Below the pieces are notes generated by a model. It did not search any database and was not told the origin of the DNA. It worked only from the letters and a program-made list of their open reading frames with translations. 64,000 nt of DNA from Cytophagales bacterium (GTDB lineage: Bacteria; Bacteroidota; Bacteroidia; Cytophagales; Cyclobacteriaceae): positions 62,001 to 126,000 of the forward strand of contig JAFLBR010000006.1 in NCBI GenBank assembly GCA_017303795.1, given 5' to 3'. The position numbers and the translations under genes were made by a program. This document shows positions 2,140 through 60,078 of the stretch, one piece after another (within the stretch, counting starts at the first letter, position 1; every line of letters begins with the position of its first letter).

Positions 2140-3084
2140 ATGGAAAGAGAGAAAGTGTTGATTATCGGGTCTGGTCCGGCAGGTTATACCGCAGCCATTT
2201 ATGCTGCCCGTGCAGGACTAACCCCAGTGTTGTACACCGGTGGCCAACCGGGTGGCCAGTTAACAACCACCAACGATGTGGAGAATTTTCCGGGTTACCC
2301 TGAAGGAATAAACGGCCCGCAAATGATGATTGATTTGCAGAAGCAAGCCGAACGGTTTGGCACGCGGGTACACTTTGCTTTGGCTACCGCTGTTGACTTT
2401 TCTGCATGGCCTCTGAAGGTCACAATTGATGAATCGAAAGTAGTGGAAGCAGAAAGTGTAATTGTGGCAACGGGTGCATCCGCTAAATATCTGGGACTGC
2501 CATCAGAAGAAACATTTGCCAACAAAGGCGTATCGGCTTGTGCTGTGTGCGATGGATTTTTCTACCGCGGTAAAGAGGTTGCGGTAGTTGGCGCTGGCGA
2601 TTCGGCTGCTGAAGAATCAACTTACTTATCGAAGCTTTGTACCAAAGTGCATTTGATTGTGCGCAGAGACGAAATGCGGGCTTCTAAAATTATGCAACAA
2701 CGGGTATTGAATACACCTAACATCGAAGTACACTGGAATTCAGAAACCGAAGAAGTATTGGGCGATGATAGTGGTGTTACCGGAGTGCGGTTGTTGAACA
2801 ACAAGACCGGTGAGAAGAAAGACATTTCAGTGCAAGGCTTCTTTCTGGCCATTGGGCATAAACCCAATACCGATATTTTTAAGGGACAATTGGACATGGA
2901 CGAATCTGGTTATGTAAAGGTTATTCCGGGCTCAACCAAAACAAATGTAGAAGGTGTGTTTGCGGTGGGCGATGTGGCCGATAGAGTGTATCGTCAAGCC
3001 ATTACAGCTGCAGGAAGTGGTTGTATGGGTGCCTTGGATGCTGAAAAGTTTTTGGCTGCGAAGGAAGGTTTGGTTGCACATTAA
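2140..3084 (+). CDS. trxB: Thioredoxin reductase
   Basis: The 314 residues match low-molecular-weight TrxB. There is an N-terminal FAD dinucleotide fold (IIGSGPAGYTAAIYAA), the redox-active CAVC disulfide near residues 134-137, an NADPH fold (GAGDSAAEE), and the C-terminal FAD motif (GVFAVGDVADRVYRQ). The enzyme uses NADPH to reduce thioredoxin in the cytoplasm. It is followed on the same strand by bshB1, the bacillithiol deacetylase, after an intergenic inverted repeat. The pairing suggests a shared thiol-redox role. Confidence 0.95.
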   Translation: MEREKVLIIGSGPAGYTAAIYAARAGLTPVLYTGGQPGGQLTTTNDVENFPGYPEGINGPQMMIDLQKQAERFGTRVHFALATAVDFSAWPLKVTIDESKVVEAESVIVATGASAKYLGLPSEETFANKGVSACAVCDGFFYRGKEVAVVGAGDSAAEESTYLSKLCTKVHLIVRRDEMRASKIMQQRVLNTPNIEVHWNSETEEVLGDDSGVTGVRLLNNKTGEKKDISVQGFFLAIGHKPNTDIFKGQLDMDESGYVKVIPGSTKTNVEGVFAVGDVADRVYRQAITAAGSGCMGALDAEKFLAAKEGLVAH

Positions 3085-3087
3085 CAT

Positions 3088-3187
3088 AAGTTACCGGTTT
3101 CCGGTTAAGTCATTTATCCATTACCTTAAACTAAATTAACGTATCAGCTATCACTCCCATAGACCGGGAACCGGTAACTGGTAACTT
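3088..3187. repeat. Inverted heptamer-type repeat between trxB and bshB1
   Basis: The left arm (3088-3105) and right arm (3163-3187) are inverted copies of one another: AAGTTACC followed by GGTTTCCGGT, with one mismatch, and a 7-base insertion in the right arm. Read on one strand, each arm is a run of seven-base units of type GTTNCCG. The same unit type recurs at 49398, 52309 and 57325. It could form a long hairpin in a trxB-bshB1 transcript. Confidence 0.7.
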
Positions 3188-3194
3188 TTAAAAA

Positions 3195-3911
3195 ATGAAA
3201 TTAGATATCCTCATACTCGCTGCACACCCCGATGATGCCGAATTAGGTTGTGGCGGTACTATTGCCAAGCACGTGGCGATGGGGCATAAAGTAGGTATTG
3301 TCGATTTTACCCGTGGTGAGTTAGGTACCCGTGGTTCGGTGCCGGAGCGCGATCAGGAAGCTAAAGATGCAGCTAAGATTCTGGGTATTTCGATACGGGA
3401 GAATCTGAATTTCAGAGATGGCTTTTTTCAAAATGATGAAGCCCATCAACGCGAAGTAATCCGGGTAATCAGAAAGTATAAACCTGAGATTGTAATCGCC
3501 AATGCGATTTACGATCGGCATCCTGATCACGGCAAAGGTTCGGGGTTAAGTTTTGATGCTTGTTTTTATTCCGGGCTAACCAAAATTGAAACTACTGATA
3601 ATGGCCTTAAGCAAGAAGCCTGGCGACCAAAATACTTATACCACTTTATACAAAGTCTGTTTATTGTACCCGATTTTGTTGTAGATGTTTCTGAATACTG
3701 GGATGTGAAGATGAATGCGGTGCGGGCATTCAAATCGCAATTCTATAGTGCCGATAGTAACGAACCTGAAACCCTTATTTCAAGTCCGGGCTTTATGAAA
3801 CTTTTAGAAGCGCGAGGGCAGGAGTTAGGCTTTTCAATTGGGGCAACTTATGGTGAAGGATTTACCGTAAGAAGAACAATTGGTGTTAACTCGTTGAATG
3901 ATTTACGATAG
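3195..3911 (+). CDS. bshB1: Bacillithiol biosynthesis deacetylase BshB1
   Basis: The 238-residue protein belongs to the PIG-L/LmbE zinc deacetylase family. The metal-binding AHPDDAELGCGG motif is at the N-terminus, and TRGELGTRG and NAIYDRHPDHG follow; these are typical of BshB1. The enzyme removes the acetyl group from GlcNAc-malate to give GlcN-malate in bacillithiol synthesis. bshA and bshC are not in the window, as is common when bsh genes are scattered. It ends one base before the stop of convergent pdxH. The general LmbE assignment is certain and the BshB1 subgroup very likely. Confidence 0.92.
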   Translation: MKLDILILAAHPDDAELGCGGTIAKHVAMGHKVGIVDFTRGELGTRGSVPERDQEAKDAAKILGISIRENLNFRDGFFQNDEAHQREVIRVIRKYKPEIVIANAIYDRHPDHGKGSGLSFDACFYSGLTKIETTDNGLKQEAWRPKYLYHFIQSLFIVPDFVVDVSEYWDVKMNAVRAFKSQFYSADSNEPETLISSPGFMKLLEARGQELGFSIGATYGEGFTVRRTIGVNSLNDLR

Positions 3912-7164: not shown

Positions 7165-7237
<73 letters not shown>

Positions 7238-49397: not shown

Positions 49398-49613
49398 GTT
49401 ACTGGCTGCTGGTTGCTCGTTGCTGGTTTGTGAGGGAGTAATTCTGAGTGGCAAGTACTGGTAGATAGGTTGACGGATTCGTTTTTTGATTGTTTGATAA
49501 TAGAAGTAAACGATTAAGCCCGAACGAAGAATCCCCTGATTCGAAGTTAACAGACTCTTGAATAAGGAGATCCTTCGCGCCAACGCACCTTGCTAACGCG
49601 GCTCAGGATTTTG
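49398..49613 (+). repeat. Dispersed repeat, copy 1 (heptamer head plus body)
   Basis: Five seven-base units of type GTTRCTG open it (49398-49432). A body follows with GAGTGGCAAGTACTGGTAG, a run around TTTTTTGATTG, GAACGAAGAATCCCC, GAGATCCTTCGCGCC and a GCTCAGGATTTTG end. The inverted copy at 57087-57325 shares most of these words in the same order. It lies in a 782-base non-coding stretch (49213-49994); in 49213-49397 I see nothing recognisable. Confidence 0.75.
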
Positions 49614-51474: not shown

Positions 51475-51480
51475 TCTAAC

Positions 51481-51557
51481 CACCAGCACCAATAACTAAA
51501 GTTTAACCACTAAGTACTAATGACTAACTACTAACGACTAAGTACTAACTACTAACC
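51481..51557. repeat. Heptanucleotide tandem repeat before the methyltransferase
   Basis: Eleven consecutive seven-base units fill 51481-51557. The last seven are all ACTAANN (51509-51557) and stop exactly at the ATG of the methyltransferase gene. Similar runs of ACTAANN units occur at 59323. The repeat takes up nearly the whole intergenic space. Confidence 0.8.
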
Positions 51558-52304
51558 ATGAACGAAAAAGCCCATTGGGAAAAACTGGCTCCCGAATACA
51601 ACACTGAAATCTTTGATGTATATGCCAGCGATAAATTCAAAAAGCTTCCACGCTACATAAAAAAACATACATCGTTAACCAAAACGGCTATCGACTTTGG
51701 TTGTGGTAACGGTAAATCATTTCCATATCTCGCACCAACCTTTAAAAGCGTGTTGGGTGTTGACATCTCCAAAGGCTTGCTAAAACAAGCTGCTGCGCGT
51801 AACTATAAAAATGTAACGGTAAAACCACATGATGTAACGCGCCCGCTTAAAGCACCAAAGGCCGACTTTGCTTTTTGTTGCAACGTAATCATGTTTCCTG
51901 ATCTGAAAAAAAATACGCTAGCGTTCAAAAACGTTGCCCGCTCATTAAAATCCGGTGGCACAGCTTTGTTTGTTTTACCTGCATTGGATTCGGCCCTTTT
52001 CTCATCGTGGCAACTGATACAACTGTATGCGCAAGAAGGAGTGAAGGCCACGGATATTCCATTGCATGAGTTTCATTACTTCAAAGGCAACAAACGCGAT
52101 CTGATACAAGGCATTGTTTATATCGACAAAGTACCCACCAAGCATTACTCCGCCAGTGAGTTAGAAGTTATCTTACCACAAGCCGGTTTCACCATTACCA
52201 AACTTGAAAAATTGGAATACGATTGGAGTACCGAGTTAGCAGCACCACCTAAAAATCTGGGGGCACCGTATCCGTGGGATTGGTTGGTGGAAGTGAAGGT
52301 ATGA
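51558..52304 (+). CDS. Class I SAM-dependent methyltransferase
   Basis: The 248-residue protein has the Rossmann SAM site AIDFGCGNGKSFPYLAPTF near 45-63. The acidic end of strand 2 (VLGVDISKGLL) and strand 4 (ADFAFCCNVIMFPDL) follow. YDWSTELAAPPKNLGAPYPWDW closes the protein. The substrate (small molecule or protein) is unknown. The start codon directly abuts the heptamer tract, so translation signals must lie within the repeat. Confidence 0.88.
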   Translation: MNEKAHWEKLAPEYNTEIFDVYASDKFKKLPRYIKKHTSLTKTAIDFGCGNGKSFPYLAPTFKSVLGVDISKGLLKQAAARNYKNVTVKPHDVTRPLKAPKADFAFCCNVIMFPDLKKNTLAFKNVARSLKSGGTALFVLPALDSALFSSWQLIQLYAQEGVKATDIPLHEFHYFKGNKRDLIQGIVYIDKVPTKHYSASELEVILPQAGFTITKLEKLEYDWSTELAAPPKNLGAPYPWDWLVEVKV

Positions 52305-52308
52305 ATAA

Positions 52309-52421
52309 GTTGCTGGCTTGTTGTTGCTGATTGCAAGAAGTAAGTTACAGGTTTCCAGTTGCCAGTGCCTTCTTAATCAAAACAAATTCAGAGTGGCAAG
52401 TCGCCCTTGTTTATTGATTAG
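52309..52421 (+). repeat. Partial dispersed repeat upstream of rhuM
   Basis: Nine seven-base units of GTTGCTG/GTTACAG/GTTTCCA type (52309-52371) are followed after 19 bases by GAGTGGCAAGTCGCCCTTG and TTATTGATTAG (52391-52421). This mirrors the start of copy 1. The last 31 bases recur at 53542-53572 with one mismatch, on the far side of rhuM. Confidence 0.7.
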
Positions 52422-57086: not shown

Positions 57087-57325
57087 CAAAATCCTGAGCA
57101 GCGTAAGCAAGTGGCGTTGGCGCGAAGGATCTCCTCATTGGAAGGTCTGGTATCTCAAAGGGGATTCTTCGTTCGGGCTTAACACTTCACTTCTATTATC
57201 AAACAATCAAAAAACGAATCCGTTAACTTATCTACCAGTACTTGCCACTCAGAATTACTCCAAACCAACCAGCCACCAGAAACTAGCAACCAGTAACTGG
57301 CAACAGGAAACTGGTAACCTGCAAC
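57087..57325 (-). repeat. Dispersed repeat, copy 3 (inverted)
   Basis: Read on the reverse strand it starts with about nine seven-base units of type GTTNCNG. It then runs through GGAGTAATTCTGAGTGGCAA, TTTTTTGATTG, CCCGAACGAAGAATCCCC, GGAGATCCTTCGCGCC and GCTCAGGATTTTG, in the same order as copy 1 at 49398. It fills the whole gap between the PhnA-like gene and the second ABC-F gene. Confidence 0.8.
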
Positions 57326-57329
57326 CCTA

Positions 57330-58967
57330 TCACGCCTTCCTCTCTATCTCCTTCAAGTTCTCCATCTTCTTATTGCGCAAGAAGCCGTTAATGTCTTCAA
57401 AGTGTTCGCGCACGCGCTTGTTACCAAACTCAAATACTTTTTTTGCAAGACCATCTAAGAAATCACGATCGTGCGAAACGAGAATCAGCGTACCATCAAA
57501 AGCCAGCAACGCATCTTTCAGAATGTCTTTGGTTTTTATGTCGAGATGGTTGGTCGGTTCATCCAGAATTAACAGGTTAACCGGTTGCAGTAACAACTTC
57601 AACATCGCCAACCGGGTTTTTTCACCACCCGAAAGTACTTTCACTTTCTTGTCGATGTTCTCACCACTAAACATAAACGCACCCAGCATGTCTTTGATTT
57701 TCGTGCGGATGTCGCCCTGCGCAACCTGATCTATGGTTTCGAACACCGTAAGTTCACCATCCAACAGGGCCGCCTGATTCTGCGCAAAGTAGCCGATCAT
57801 ACTATTGTGACCTACCTGCAAGCGACCGTCAAAATCAATCTCGCCCATAATAGCTTTTATCATGGTCGATTTACCCTCACCATTCTTACCTACAAAGGCT
57901 ATCTTCTCGCCACGCGCAATGGTGAATGTTGCATCTTTAAACACCAGGTGGTCGCCATAGGTTTTGGTAAGACCATCGGCTATAACCGGATAGTTACCCG
58001 AACGTGGTGCGGGTGGAAACTTCAGGTTTAGTGCTGAAGTATCCATCTCATCTACCTGCACAATCTCAATCTTCTCCAACATCTTTACGCGCGATTGCAC
58101 TTGCAGCGTTTTGGAATACGTTCCTTTAAATCGATCAATAAATCCCTGAATGTCGGCTATCTCTTTCTGCTGATCTTCAAAATGTTTCTGCTGTTGCTCG
58201 CGTCTTTCTTTGCGCAATTGCAGGTAATGCGAGTAGTTGGTTTTGTAATCGTAAATGCGGCCCATCGTTACTTCAATGGTACGATTGGTCAGGTTATCCA
58301 CAAACATTTTATCGTGACTGATTACAATCACCGCCTTGGCGCTCGTCTTCAAAAATTCTTCCAACCATTGCACCGATTCAATGTCCAGGTGGTTGGTAGG
58401 CTCATCCAACAAAATCAGATCGGGTTTCTGCAACAGAATTTTCGCTAACTCAATGCGCATGCGCCAGCCACCGCTAAACTCTGTGGTAGGCCGCGTAAAG
58501 TCGCTGCGCACAAAACCTAATCCCATTAATGTTTTTTCTATTTCAGCATCGTAGTTTATCTCTTCAATCGAATAAAACTTTTCGCTCAACTCCGATACTT
58601 CTTCAATAATCTTCGCATACTCATCCGATTCATAATCGGTACGGACTTCTAATTGATGATTCAACTCATCAATGCGTGTTTTCATACCATGCACTTTCGA
58701 GAAAGCCTTGCTGGTTTCATCAAACACCGAGCAATCGTCTTCGGTTAACAAGTGCTGCGGCAGGTAGGCGATAATGGCATCCTTAGGTGCCGATACTTTG
58801 CCGCGTGTGGCTTTGCTTTTGCCCGCAATAATCTTGAGCAGGGTGGACTTGCCCGCCCCGTTTTTGCCCATCAGGGCTATGCGATCGTTTTCGTTGATGT
58901 TAAAAGTGATGTCACTAAAAAGAGCCGAACCATTAAATTCTACTGTTACTGCGTCAACCGAAATCAT
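57330..58967 (-). CDS. ABC-F family ATPase (second copy in window)
   Basis: The 545 residues hold two ABC domains: Walker A GKNGAGKST near 35 and GKNGEGKST near 350, signatures FSGGWRMR and LSGGEKTR, and Walker B LDEPTNHLD twice. A short arm domain and a basic linker (LQLRKERREQQQKHF) lie between. It resembles the YbiT/EttA-like side of ABC-F more than the gene at 38038. These proteins act at the ribosomal E site. A good promoter lies upstream at 58987. Confidence 0.92.
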   Translation of the reverse strand: MISVDAVTVEFNGSALFSDITFNINENDRIALMGKNGAGKSTLLKIIAGKSKATRGKVSAPKDAIIAYLPQHLLTEDDCSVFDETSKAFSKVHGMKTRIDELNHQLEVRTDYESDEYAKIIEEVSELSEKFYSIEEINYDAEIEKTLMGLGFVRSDFTRPTTEFSGGWRMRIELAKILLQKPDLILLDEPTNHLDIESVQWLEEFLKTSAKAVIVISHDKMFVDNLTNRTIEVTMGRIYDYKTNYSHYLQLRKERREQQQKHFEDQQKEIADIQGFIDRFKGTYSKTLQVQSRVKMLEKIEIVQVDEMDTSALNLKFPPAPRSGNYPVIADGLTKTYGDHLVFKDATFTIARGEKIAFVGKNGEGKSTMIKAIMGEIDFDGRLQVGHNSMIGYFAQNQAALLDGELTVFETIDQVAQGDIRTKIKDMLGAFMFSGENIDKKVKVLSGGEKTRLAMLKLLLQPVNLLILDEPTNHLDIKTKDILKDALLAFDGTLILVSHDRDFLDGLAKKVFEFGNKRVREHFEDINGFLRNKKMENLKEIERKA

Positions 58968-59322: not shown

Positions 59323-59392
59323 ACTAAATTACTAAATACTACTACTCAAGACTAAGGACTAAGGACTAACTACTAAAGACTAAAGACTTACC
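59323..59392. repeat. Heptanucleotide tandem repeat before the PLD-like gene
   Basis: About ten ACTAANN-type units run from 59323 to 59392, ending two bases before the ATG at 59395. Phase slips once near 59330 and once near 59345. The five units from 59351 to 59385 are uninterrupted. Confidence 0.78.
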
Positions 59393-59394
59393 CA

Positions 59395-60078
59395 ATGCAA
59401 CCCATTCTAGATTTTCTCAAACTCAGTATCGAAGACCAATACTTTTCGAAGTCGGAGCGTAAATCGTTACGCGAAATAATTGATGACGTAAAACCCAACG
59501 AAAGTCAGTTGGCATTTTTGCGCAGTCAGATTTTTGAACTCGCCAATCAGAAAGCCACACCTGAAAATTATCGGTTTATTGTAGAATGGATTCGCGATGC
59601 CACCAGCGCGTTAATGAATACCATCCCCAACACACCCGGTTCCGATGCTTACTTTAGTCCGGGTGAAACGTGCCGCAATATCATCATGCAACAGATCCGG
59701 CAGGCCACGCAACATCTTCAGATTTGTGTGTTTACCATCAGCGATGATATTATTACCAATTCCATCATCGAATCGCACAAGCGGGGAGTGCCGGTAAAAA
59801 TTATTACCGATAACGATAAGATGCTGGACGAAGGTTCGGACATTGATCAACTGGCTAATGCCGGAATTCCCGTTCGCATCGATCGTACCGCCAACCACAT
59901 GCATCATAAGTTTATGATTACCGATAACAAAGCGTTGCTAACCGGTAGCTATAACTGGACGCGCAGTGCAGCAAAGTTTAACCATGAAAATATTTTGCTT
60001 ACCCGCGATGGTGGCGTGATTAAATCATTTGCCAAAGAGTTTGATCAATTATGGAATACACTGGCGGAGTATGAATAA
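59395..60078 (+). CDS. Phospholipase D-like / nuclease family protein
   Basis: The 227 residues have a helical N-terminal region of about 85 residues. A single PLD-like domain then carries one HKD motif (HHKFMITDNKALLTGSYNWT; His, Lys and Asp near 168-175) and CVFTISDDIITNSIIESHKR. One HKD per chain fits the nuclease/Zucchini-type, which dimerises to build the active site. It may cleave nucleic acid or phospholipid. There is no signal peptide. An ABC ATPase gene follows after a 54-base gap with a hairpin. Confidence 0.88.
   Translation: MQPILDFLKLSIEDQYFSKSERKSLREIIDDVKPNESQLAFLRSQIFELANQKATPENYRFIVEWIRDATSALMNTIPNTPGSDAYFSPGETCRNIIMQQIRQATQHLQICVFTISDDIITNSIIESHKRGVPVKIITDNDKMLDEGSDIDQLANAGIPVRIDRTANHMHHKFMITDNKALLTGSYNWTRSAAKFNHENILLTRDGGVIKSFAKEFDQLWNTLAEYE

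Follow-up and report, generated by a model that had tools for sequence, protein, structure and literature searches.

Degenerate repeats with a strict period of seven bases are dispersed through the intergenic DNA of this member of the Cytophagales, as a preliminary description had proposed, and both the scans of self-match by lag and the counts of gene spacers bear this out. The repeats are polarized with respect to the genes, given that the units of one strand tend to follow stop codons while those of the complementary strand tend to precede start codons, and where both occur in the same spacer, they are never found in the reverse order. The best explanation, which is tentative and falls somewhat short of an even chance, is that heptads grown by slippage may be kept as hairpins downstream from stop codons or between cistrons, a function that we infer. 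This reading is supported by the polarity, the anchoring of the arrays in the stop codon, and the persistence of the hairpin at three of five orthologous junctions.

Seven-Base Tracts in the Window

The repeats belong to two families, ACT/AGT and AAC/GTT, each of which has an RGT strand and a complementary ACY strand. The RGT heptads (TTAGTNN, TGAGTNN, and GTTNCNG) form the left arm of a tract, and the ACY heptads (ACTAANN and CNGNAAC) form the right arm. The ACTAANN and GTTNCNG types are related, as had been suspected, in that both families follow the same strand rule and sometimes pair in a single spacer. The pairing of the arms is mostly within a family, although mixed spacers exist, for example, at L209 12720–12956.

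In the window (the whole 64-kb stretch of DNA that was analyzed), period-7 units are present in all six of the places where they had been described. At 3088–3187, the units were confirmed, but the supposed single tract resolves into two opposed arms, which are complementary to each other and separated by 57 nt. The tracts of the window are the following:

51495–51557, + strand: the focal tract, 63 bases of ACTAANK-type units that form a lone ACY arm on the coding strand
59324–59392, + strand: lone ACY (ACTAANN) arm in a divergent spacer, preceding the start codon of a gene with a PLDc_2 domain
3089–3105, + strand: RGT arm of the GTT family, on the left side of an intercistronic hairpin located past the stop codon of the Pyr_redox_2 gene 2140–3084
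3163–3179, + strand: right ACY (AAC-family) arm, the hairpin partner of 3089–3105, upstream of the PIG-L deacetylase-family gene 3195–3911
49398–49428, + strand: GTT-family tract adjoining a dispersed repeat, within a long divergent spacer
52309–52365, + strand: GTT-family tract, in the RGT orientation, just 3' of the stop codon that ends the methyltransferase gene
57268–57326, − strand: GTT-family tract that reads AAC on the + strand and immediately follows the stop codon of the ABC_tran gene 57330–58967

Two tracts had been placed at or close to a start codon, which proved correct: the focal tract abuts the ATG at 51558 of the methyltransferase gene 51558–52304 (Methyltransf_11), and 59324–59392 ends two bases short of the ATG at 59395. 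Units of the GTT type were likewise found in the last three tracts of the list, in the form of CNGNAAC on the + strand at 57268–57326, where the RGT units follow the stop codon on the coding strand of the ABC_tran gene, that is, the − strand. The arms 3089–3105 and 3163–3179 fold into a hairpin with a dG of −29.8 (z −4.7), and the focal tract is unfolded (dG −3.6, z 0.4). The Pyr_redox_2 gene is presumably thioredoxin-reductase-like. A dispersed repeat of 192 bases is present on opposite strands at 49422–49613 and 57087–57273, with 86% identity, and each copy has a GTT-family tract at the corresponding end. Contig C2 of this genome contains weaker partial matches to the repeat.

Period and Distribution in the Genome

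When the window was scanned at lags 2–24, a 56-base stretch with a self-match of at least 60% was recorded only at lags 7, 14, and 21. In a 464-kb sample, composed of the window and 20 evenly spaced 20-kb stretches, 11 lag-7 segments reached a score of at least 12, in comparison with none in one shuffled copy, which is more than chance would give. At a score of at least 15, eight lag-7 segments remained, and the shuffled copy again had none at this lag. The other lags between 2 and 30 returned 0–2 segments each, except for 14, 21, 24, and 30, with 4, 3, 4, and 6, respectively, and period 7 is the single clear short-period excess in this sample. Across the 4.87-Mb genome, three consecutive ACTAANN units occur 76 times (58 + 18), versus six (1 + 5) occurrences of the pattern in reverse, and three consecutive GTTNCNG units occur three times, versus none for the control.

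The position of the repeats in relation to the genes was surveyed in 1.264 Mb (the window and 60 further stretches), with genes called by a simple ORF caller. Twenty of these stretches are evenly spaced, and the other 40 were picked after the genome-wide ACTAANN search had located tracts, which makes the density of tracts in the genome as a whole uncertain. The survey returned 47 merged lag-7/14 tracts, 42 of them in called spacers and five elsewhere, two of the latter inside called genes. The contrast between spacers and genes is sharper for the ACT runs of at least five units at period 7, which number 20 in intergenic DNA and zero in 1.05 Mb of called genes. When a run is defined as at least four RGT or ACY units, with one missing unit tolerated, runs are present in 38 of the 844 called spacers, that is, 5, 16, and 12 spacers in three samples of 400 kb each (the evenly spaced set being that with five), and five spacers in the window.

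Arm Order and Gene Orientation

Both arms are present in 16 of the 38 run-bearing spacers, with the RGT arm preceding the ACY arm in 15 of them and the two arms overlapping in the other, whereas the reverse order was never observed. Twelve of these 16 spacers are codirectional, four are convergent, and none are divergent. The same polarity is found in the arms that lie on the coding strand no more than 15 nt from the edge of a gene, where ACY arms predominate 12:2 before start codons, and RGT arms 26:5 after stop codons (Fisher p 1.4e-5, with units and related species being non-independent events). Seven of these 45 arm-edge counts are exceptions. Two of them are ACT-type arms that fill their spacers (51475–51557 and L222 10813), and the other five are spacers of the GTT family, where both cores are read in one stretch.

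A number of simpler sources of this pattern were rejected. The polarity does not derive from the base composition of gene edges, given that the 40 nt beside ordinary genes have no matching bias, nor is it a trait of all intergenic inverted repeats, which are ordered 24 versus 20 of 77 when they lack period 7, and 13 versus 0 of 17 when they possess it, in the same spacers. The faithful inverted duplication of one arm was also rejected, with a complementarity of unit order of 43.8, in comparison with 43.9 for shuffled units, as was the sharing of units specific to a tract, since the likeness between its two arms is no higher than that found across tracts (eight tracts, p 0.40).

The orientation of the genes has a bearing on transcription termination. 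The hairpins need at least one gene end, given the absence of divergent spacers among those with both arms, as would suit unusual terminators that lack a T-run, and a classical terminator was identified in none of the 36 codirectional or convergent heptad spacers of at least 40 nt, versus 60 of the 437 others. Some of the both-arm spacers are nevertheless found inside likely operons, between ABC ATPase and ABC-2 permease genes (L216) or YjgF/RidA-like and alanine-racemase-family genes (L237), which speaks against plain termination, and the scan for a stem followed by a T-run returned none in the heptad spacers. A role of this type is quite unlikely.

A mobile origin, in which REP-like palindromes are spread by an IS200-type (RAYT) transposase, would be in keeping with tracts that are palindromic, extragenic, and dispersed, in a genome that has four Y1_Tnp matches above the cut-off. 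This origin is highly improbable, however, given that no heptad runs were found within about 1.5 kb of any of the four Y1_Tnp loci examined (of five matches), and that the arms consist of tandem heptads whose content changes, and not of a conserved unit.

Stop Codons and the Grammar of the Units

An AGT array was assigned to the upstream gene when it had at least three units and began no more than 14 nt from the stop codon. Eleven of the 16 genes with a downstream array of this type end in TAG, in comparison with 212 of the 1,058 called genes (binomial p 3e-5), and ten of the 16 have an array in which the stop codon serves as the first unit (TAG-T). In none of these ten TAG-anchored genes does an AGT occupy the preceding slot, inside the gene. 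The density of stops downstream from stop codons is 0.095 per nt in the heptad spacers, and 0.062 in the others.

The units of the ACT[AC] family also conform to a rule at positions 4 and 5, which are AA in 90 of 174 units, CA in 52, AT in 24, AC in four, TA in two, and AG and GA in one each. Read in the AGT direction, a stop triplet is present in 173 of the 174 units, versus 164.0 expected if the two positions were independent, although these units were taken from runs with A or C at position 4 in no less than 70% of the units (with the last unit dropped in runs longer than four), so that the better test is the conditional count, in which position 5 is A in all 55 of the units with a base other than A at position 4. 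The sixth position is free, with A in 65, G in 60, C in 57, and T in 40 of 222 units. The rule is kept equally in the ACT arms that precede start codons, on a strand that is not read by ribosomes, and it does not apply to the GTT and ACTGATN families or to other phyla. We treat it purely as a grammar of the unit.

Part of this evidence might be interpreted in terms of translation, with the ACY arms before start codons recruiting ribosomes or an RNA-binding protein, and the arms after stop codons blocking readthrough in all frames. The recruitment component parallels the proposal made for the TAACTGA heptamer by MacGregor (PMC4679880), and TAACTGA permutes to ACTGATA. The excess of ACY arms before start codons, the near-universal stop triplet, the TAG anchoring, and the raised density of stops all agree with such a role. 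The stop rule is nonetheless maintained just as well where the strand is not translated, the distance to the start codon does not appear fixed when assessed by eye, and runs are restricted to the 38 spacers mentioned above, all of which makes translational elements an unlikely explanation.

Orthologous Junctions and Turnover

The persistence of the hairpins was evaluated in species of the same genus at five junctions, chosen because they hold tracts, together with the L216 junction. A z of −4 or below was obtained at the convergent MatE junction in seven of the nine relatives with the gene pair, at the racemase-family junction in four of the eight folded (in two more relatives, the spacer does not exceed 13 nt), and at the argS junction in three of the four folded. 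By the same measure, no hairpin was recovered in the five relatives folded for the 3085–3194 junction, nor in the eight folded for the focal junction, and the single close orthologue of the L216 junction (G018) has an 11-nt spacer without a tract. Among ordinary spacers of 50–150 nt in three relatives, this z was reached in four of 35 codirectional, two of eight convergent, and zero of nine divergent spacers, and in the genome itself, in 13 of 100, five of 17, and zero of 36 spacers without runs, respectively. The proportion in its own both-arm spacers is only six of 11 codirectional and two of four convergent.

In five other relatives, the argS junction has spacers of 456–744 nt (L268, L269, L271, L272, and L274). 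One of these, L268 1045–1500 (in G009, upstream of argS), contains a 125-aa ORF at 1088–1465, the product of which may be GxxExxY-like. The long spacers of L268, L269, and L272 have TTAACCGC / GCGGTTAA-like inverted ends at both borders.

Period-7 runs of GT and AC units occur together in ten of 23 orthologous spacers, with GT first in all ten, where shuffles lead to an expectation of 0.01. These 23 spacers represent four junctions, after the exclusion of the focal junction, spacers of less than 25 nt, the five argS spacers of more than 400 nt, L275, L314, and L282. In an alignment of the five MatE-junction relatives (of nine) that are similar in length, the covariation score was 0.195, versus 0.095 for shuffled alignments (none of 500 as high) and no more than 0.057 for slid controls, although related rows can surpass shuffles in the absence of any structure. 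Four pairs are changed on both sides, a number that was equaled in 34 of the 500 shuffles. At some orthologous junctions, then, the hairpin and the grammar persist while the bases change, which is not the case at others. Different species can have different unit families at a given junction, and the relatives of the focal junction (L054–L064) have heptads of a different make-up, with a lag-7 score of at least 9 in three of 11, and a 14-base period visible by eye in L054.

Some of the tracts also have features that would suit growth by whole units. The spacer of the orthologous argS junction measures 81 nt in one species and 74 nt in another, a difference of seven bases, and long runs in which ACTAATT and ACTCAAT are repeated almost perfectly are found at G000:C12:250842–250951 and L217 8441–8648, although the units are usually mixed. 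Both observations fit slippage. Adjacent units are identical in 27 of 191 cases, versus 8.7 expected, an excess that comes largely from the single run of more than 14 units, without which the count is 12 of 166, versus 7.1. At L212 3624–3696, a tandem 14-base unit is followed by its inverted copy, in a separate sequence family with a palindromic habit.

The main rival to the kept hairpin is a neutral heptad microsatellite, which would expand by slippage wherever coding permits, with fold-back template switching making and repairing the palindromes, and nothing being selected. Near-perfect runs (as in C12 and L217) and the absence of ACT runs from called genes would be expected of such a sequence, as would the uncorrelated order of the units in the two arms, the replacement of unit families at the same junction in different species, and the lack of a kept hairpin at two of the five junctions. 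Random insertion or fold-back predicts both polarities, however, and the order of ACY followed by RGT was found in none of the 16 both-arm spacers in this genome, none of the four from other taxa, and none of the ten orthologues. In addition to this one-way order, which it leaves unexplained, neutral slippage with fold-back repair does not predict TAG anchoring without extension into the gene, nor the persistence of the hairpin at three of the five junctions. It is a credible explanation, although the chances are that it is not the correct one.

In the case of the kept hairpin, the arrays would grow, shrink, and be scrambled by slippage in steps of seven bases, mostly downstream from the stop codon, because duplication there would be harmless to the protein. 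They may be kept at many junctions because a hairpin transcribed right after the stop codon would act as an intercistronic or 3'-end element, which might separate neighboring cistrons and shield the upstream message from 3' decay, while the arrays would supply stops in all three frames. The single ACY arms, including the focal tract, would then be low-structure leaders derived from the same units. This reading is favored by the restriction of opposed arms to spacers in which a gene ends, the anchoring in the stop codon, the hairpins kept at three of the five junctions, the lack of classical terminators in the heptad spacers, and the location of some of these spacers inside likely operons. It is opposed by the two of the five junctions without a kept hairpin, the uncorrelated order of the units in the arms, the stop rule in the arms before start codons, the limited share of both-arm spacers of this genome with a z of −4 or below, the arm-edge counts that break the polarity, and the mixed orientation of the TAACTGA sets in Microcystis.

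Occurrence in Other Genomes

The likeness to the heptanucleotide repeats of cyanobacteria, which had been pointed out from the window alone, extends to the sequence, with five consecutive ACTAANK units being present in records of Nostoc, Anabaena, Tychonema, and Microcoleus. At least 120 stretches with this pattern exist in GTDB genomes, and among the 80 matches listed, the record titles indicate 50 cyanobacteria and 15 Bacteroidota, with the other loci including Methylococcales. A nearby AGT run of at least four units accompanies the ACT run in four of the 80 matches listed, and precedes it in all four. Opposed arms are thus rarer in these listed loci than in the spacers with runs here (16 of 38), the selection of the two sets being different.

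Closer to the present genome, three consecutive ACTAANN units were found in 21 of 58 related genomes, its own included. In two members of the same order, G054 and G055, the reversed control heptad is as common or commoner, with 277 and 89 matches, which indicates that other heptad families are abundant there. Small samples of the relatives returned two lag-7 segments at threshold 12 in G008, none in G009, two in G024, none in G031, and one in G055. A strict palindrome, TTAGT three times followed by ACTAA three times, was recovered from four of 395 genomes of the phylum, and since it misses the genome in which the tracts were found, this pattern is too strict for the measurement of their spread. 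Heptad hairpins of the TTAGT/ACTAA type are present in another family of the phylum, at L325, L326, and L327 (genomes G223, G087, and G099), the first and third being perfect and identical, and the second having different inner units.

Comparison with Known Repeats

The short tandemly repeated repetitive sequences (STRR) of cyanobacteria are tandem heptanucleotide repeats, a feature that they share with the tracts described here. Three heptanucleotides in Calothrix are also mentioned by Rehm et al. (2015, PMC4692102). REPs are extragenic palindromes of 20–40 bp, tagged at one end, for which roles in mRNA stability and termination have been proposed (PMC3733652), and the REP/BIME elements resemble the present tracts in being extragenic and palindromic, but differ from them in that the latter are tandem heptads of variable content. 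No known RNA family was recognized, given that an Rfam search at the gathering threshold (window, L240, L228, L237, and L225) returned a single match, a tRNA at 7165–7237. Among the literature matches listed, from which subscription journals are largely absent, none deals with palindromic heptads in Bacteroidetes or TAG-anchored arrays.

The initial impression that there is no described equivalent in the Bacteroidetes has to be abandoned, given that direct repeats of the TAACTGA heptamer have been reported from Beggiatoaceae, Cyanobacteria, and five Bacteroidetes (MacGregor 2015, PMC4679880). In the Beggiatoaceae genome, according to this source, these repeats lie immediately upstream of start codons, predominantly in a single orientation, and contain stops in all three frames, and translational control was suggested, while in Microcystis, eight of 22 sampled intergenic sets are reversed relative to the start codon (PMC4679880). 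They are similar to the present repeats in being intergenic and seven bases long, and in the permutation of TAACTGA to ACTGATA, which is an ACT heptad. The TAACTGA unit is nevertheless nearly exact and, in the account of the main genome, almost always in direct repeats, with one inverted case (PMC4679880), whereas the genome studied here has mixed units and opposed arms. The exact TAACTGA direct repeat was not seen by eye in the listed tracts, in which the units are a mixture of ACT[AC][AT]NK, ACYGGNA, and ACTGATN.

The GGGAATC and GGGGA(C/T)T heptameric repeats of Xanthomonas and Nostoc, which are degenerate and mostly intergenic (Rehm et al. 2015, PMC4692102), provide the closest match in terms of placement. 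In Xanthomonas, GGGAATC is described as lying on the sense strand up to 50 bp after stop codons, and on the antisense strand up to 50 bp before start codons, and as being under-represented between divergent genes, and the convergent inverted pairs number 70 and 75 in two genomes (PMC4692102). In the Xanthomonas and Nostoc heptamers, the gene neighbors are kept across related species while the length and sequence vary, and some of the repeats overlap the stop codon (PMC4692102). Units of the GGGAATC type have G-tracts, which were discussed as possible G-quadruplexes, with the function left open (PMC4692102). The present genome obeys the same placement rule, but without any quadruplex-capable run (four G-tracts) in its 38 spacers with runs, which makes G-quadruplexes less likely as a shared cause. 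The conserved folding, the TAG anchoring, and the stop-triplet rule are additions of the present analysis, made in this genome and its relatives.

The tracts have exact seven-base units, a bias towards non-coding DNA, and a strand rule at gene ends, and are heptameric intergenic repeats that belong to neither the GGGAATC nor the TAACTGA set. A broader, more doubtful proposal is that the heptameric intergenic repeats of several phyla may represent one kind of self-renewing junction element, anchored in the stop codon, in which the arms would form a transcribed hairpin, with structure, polarity, and period kept during turnover by 7-nt slippage, and the quadruplexes of Xanthomonas being incidental. 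A TAGT about every seven bases would, in such an element, rotate stops through the three frames. The polarity found here makes the function of the known period-7 repeats testable, and a placement rule that is shared in the absence of quadruplexes points towards hairpins anchored in the stop codon.
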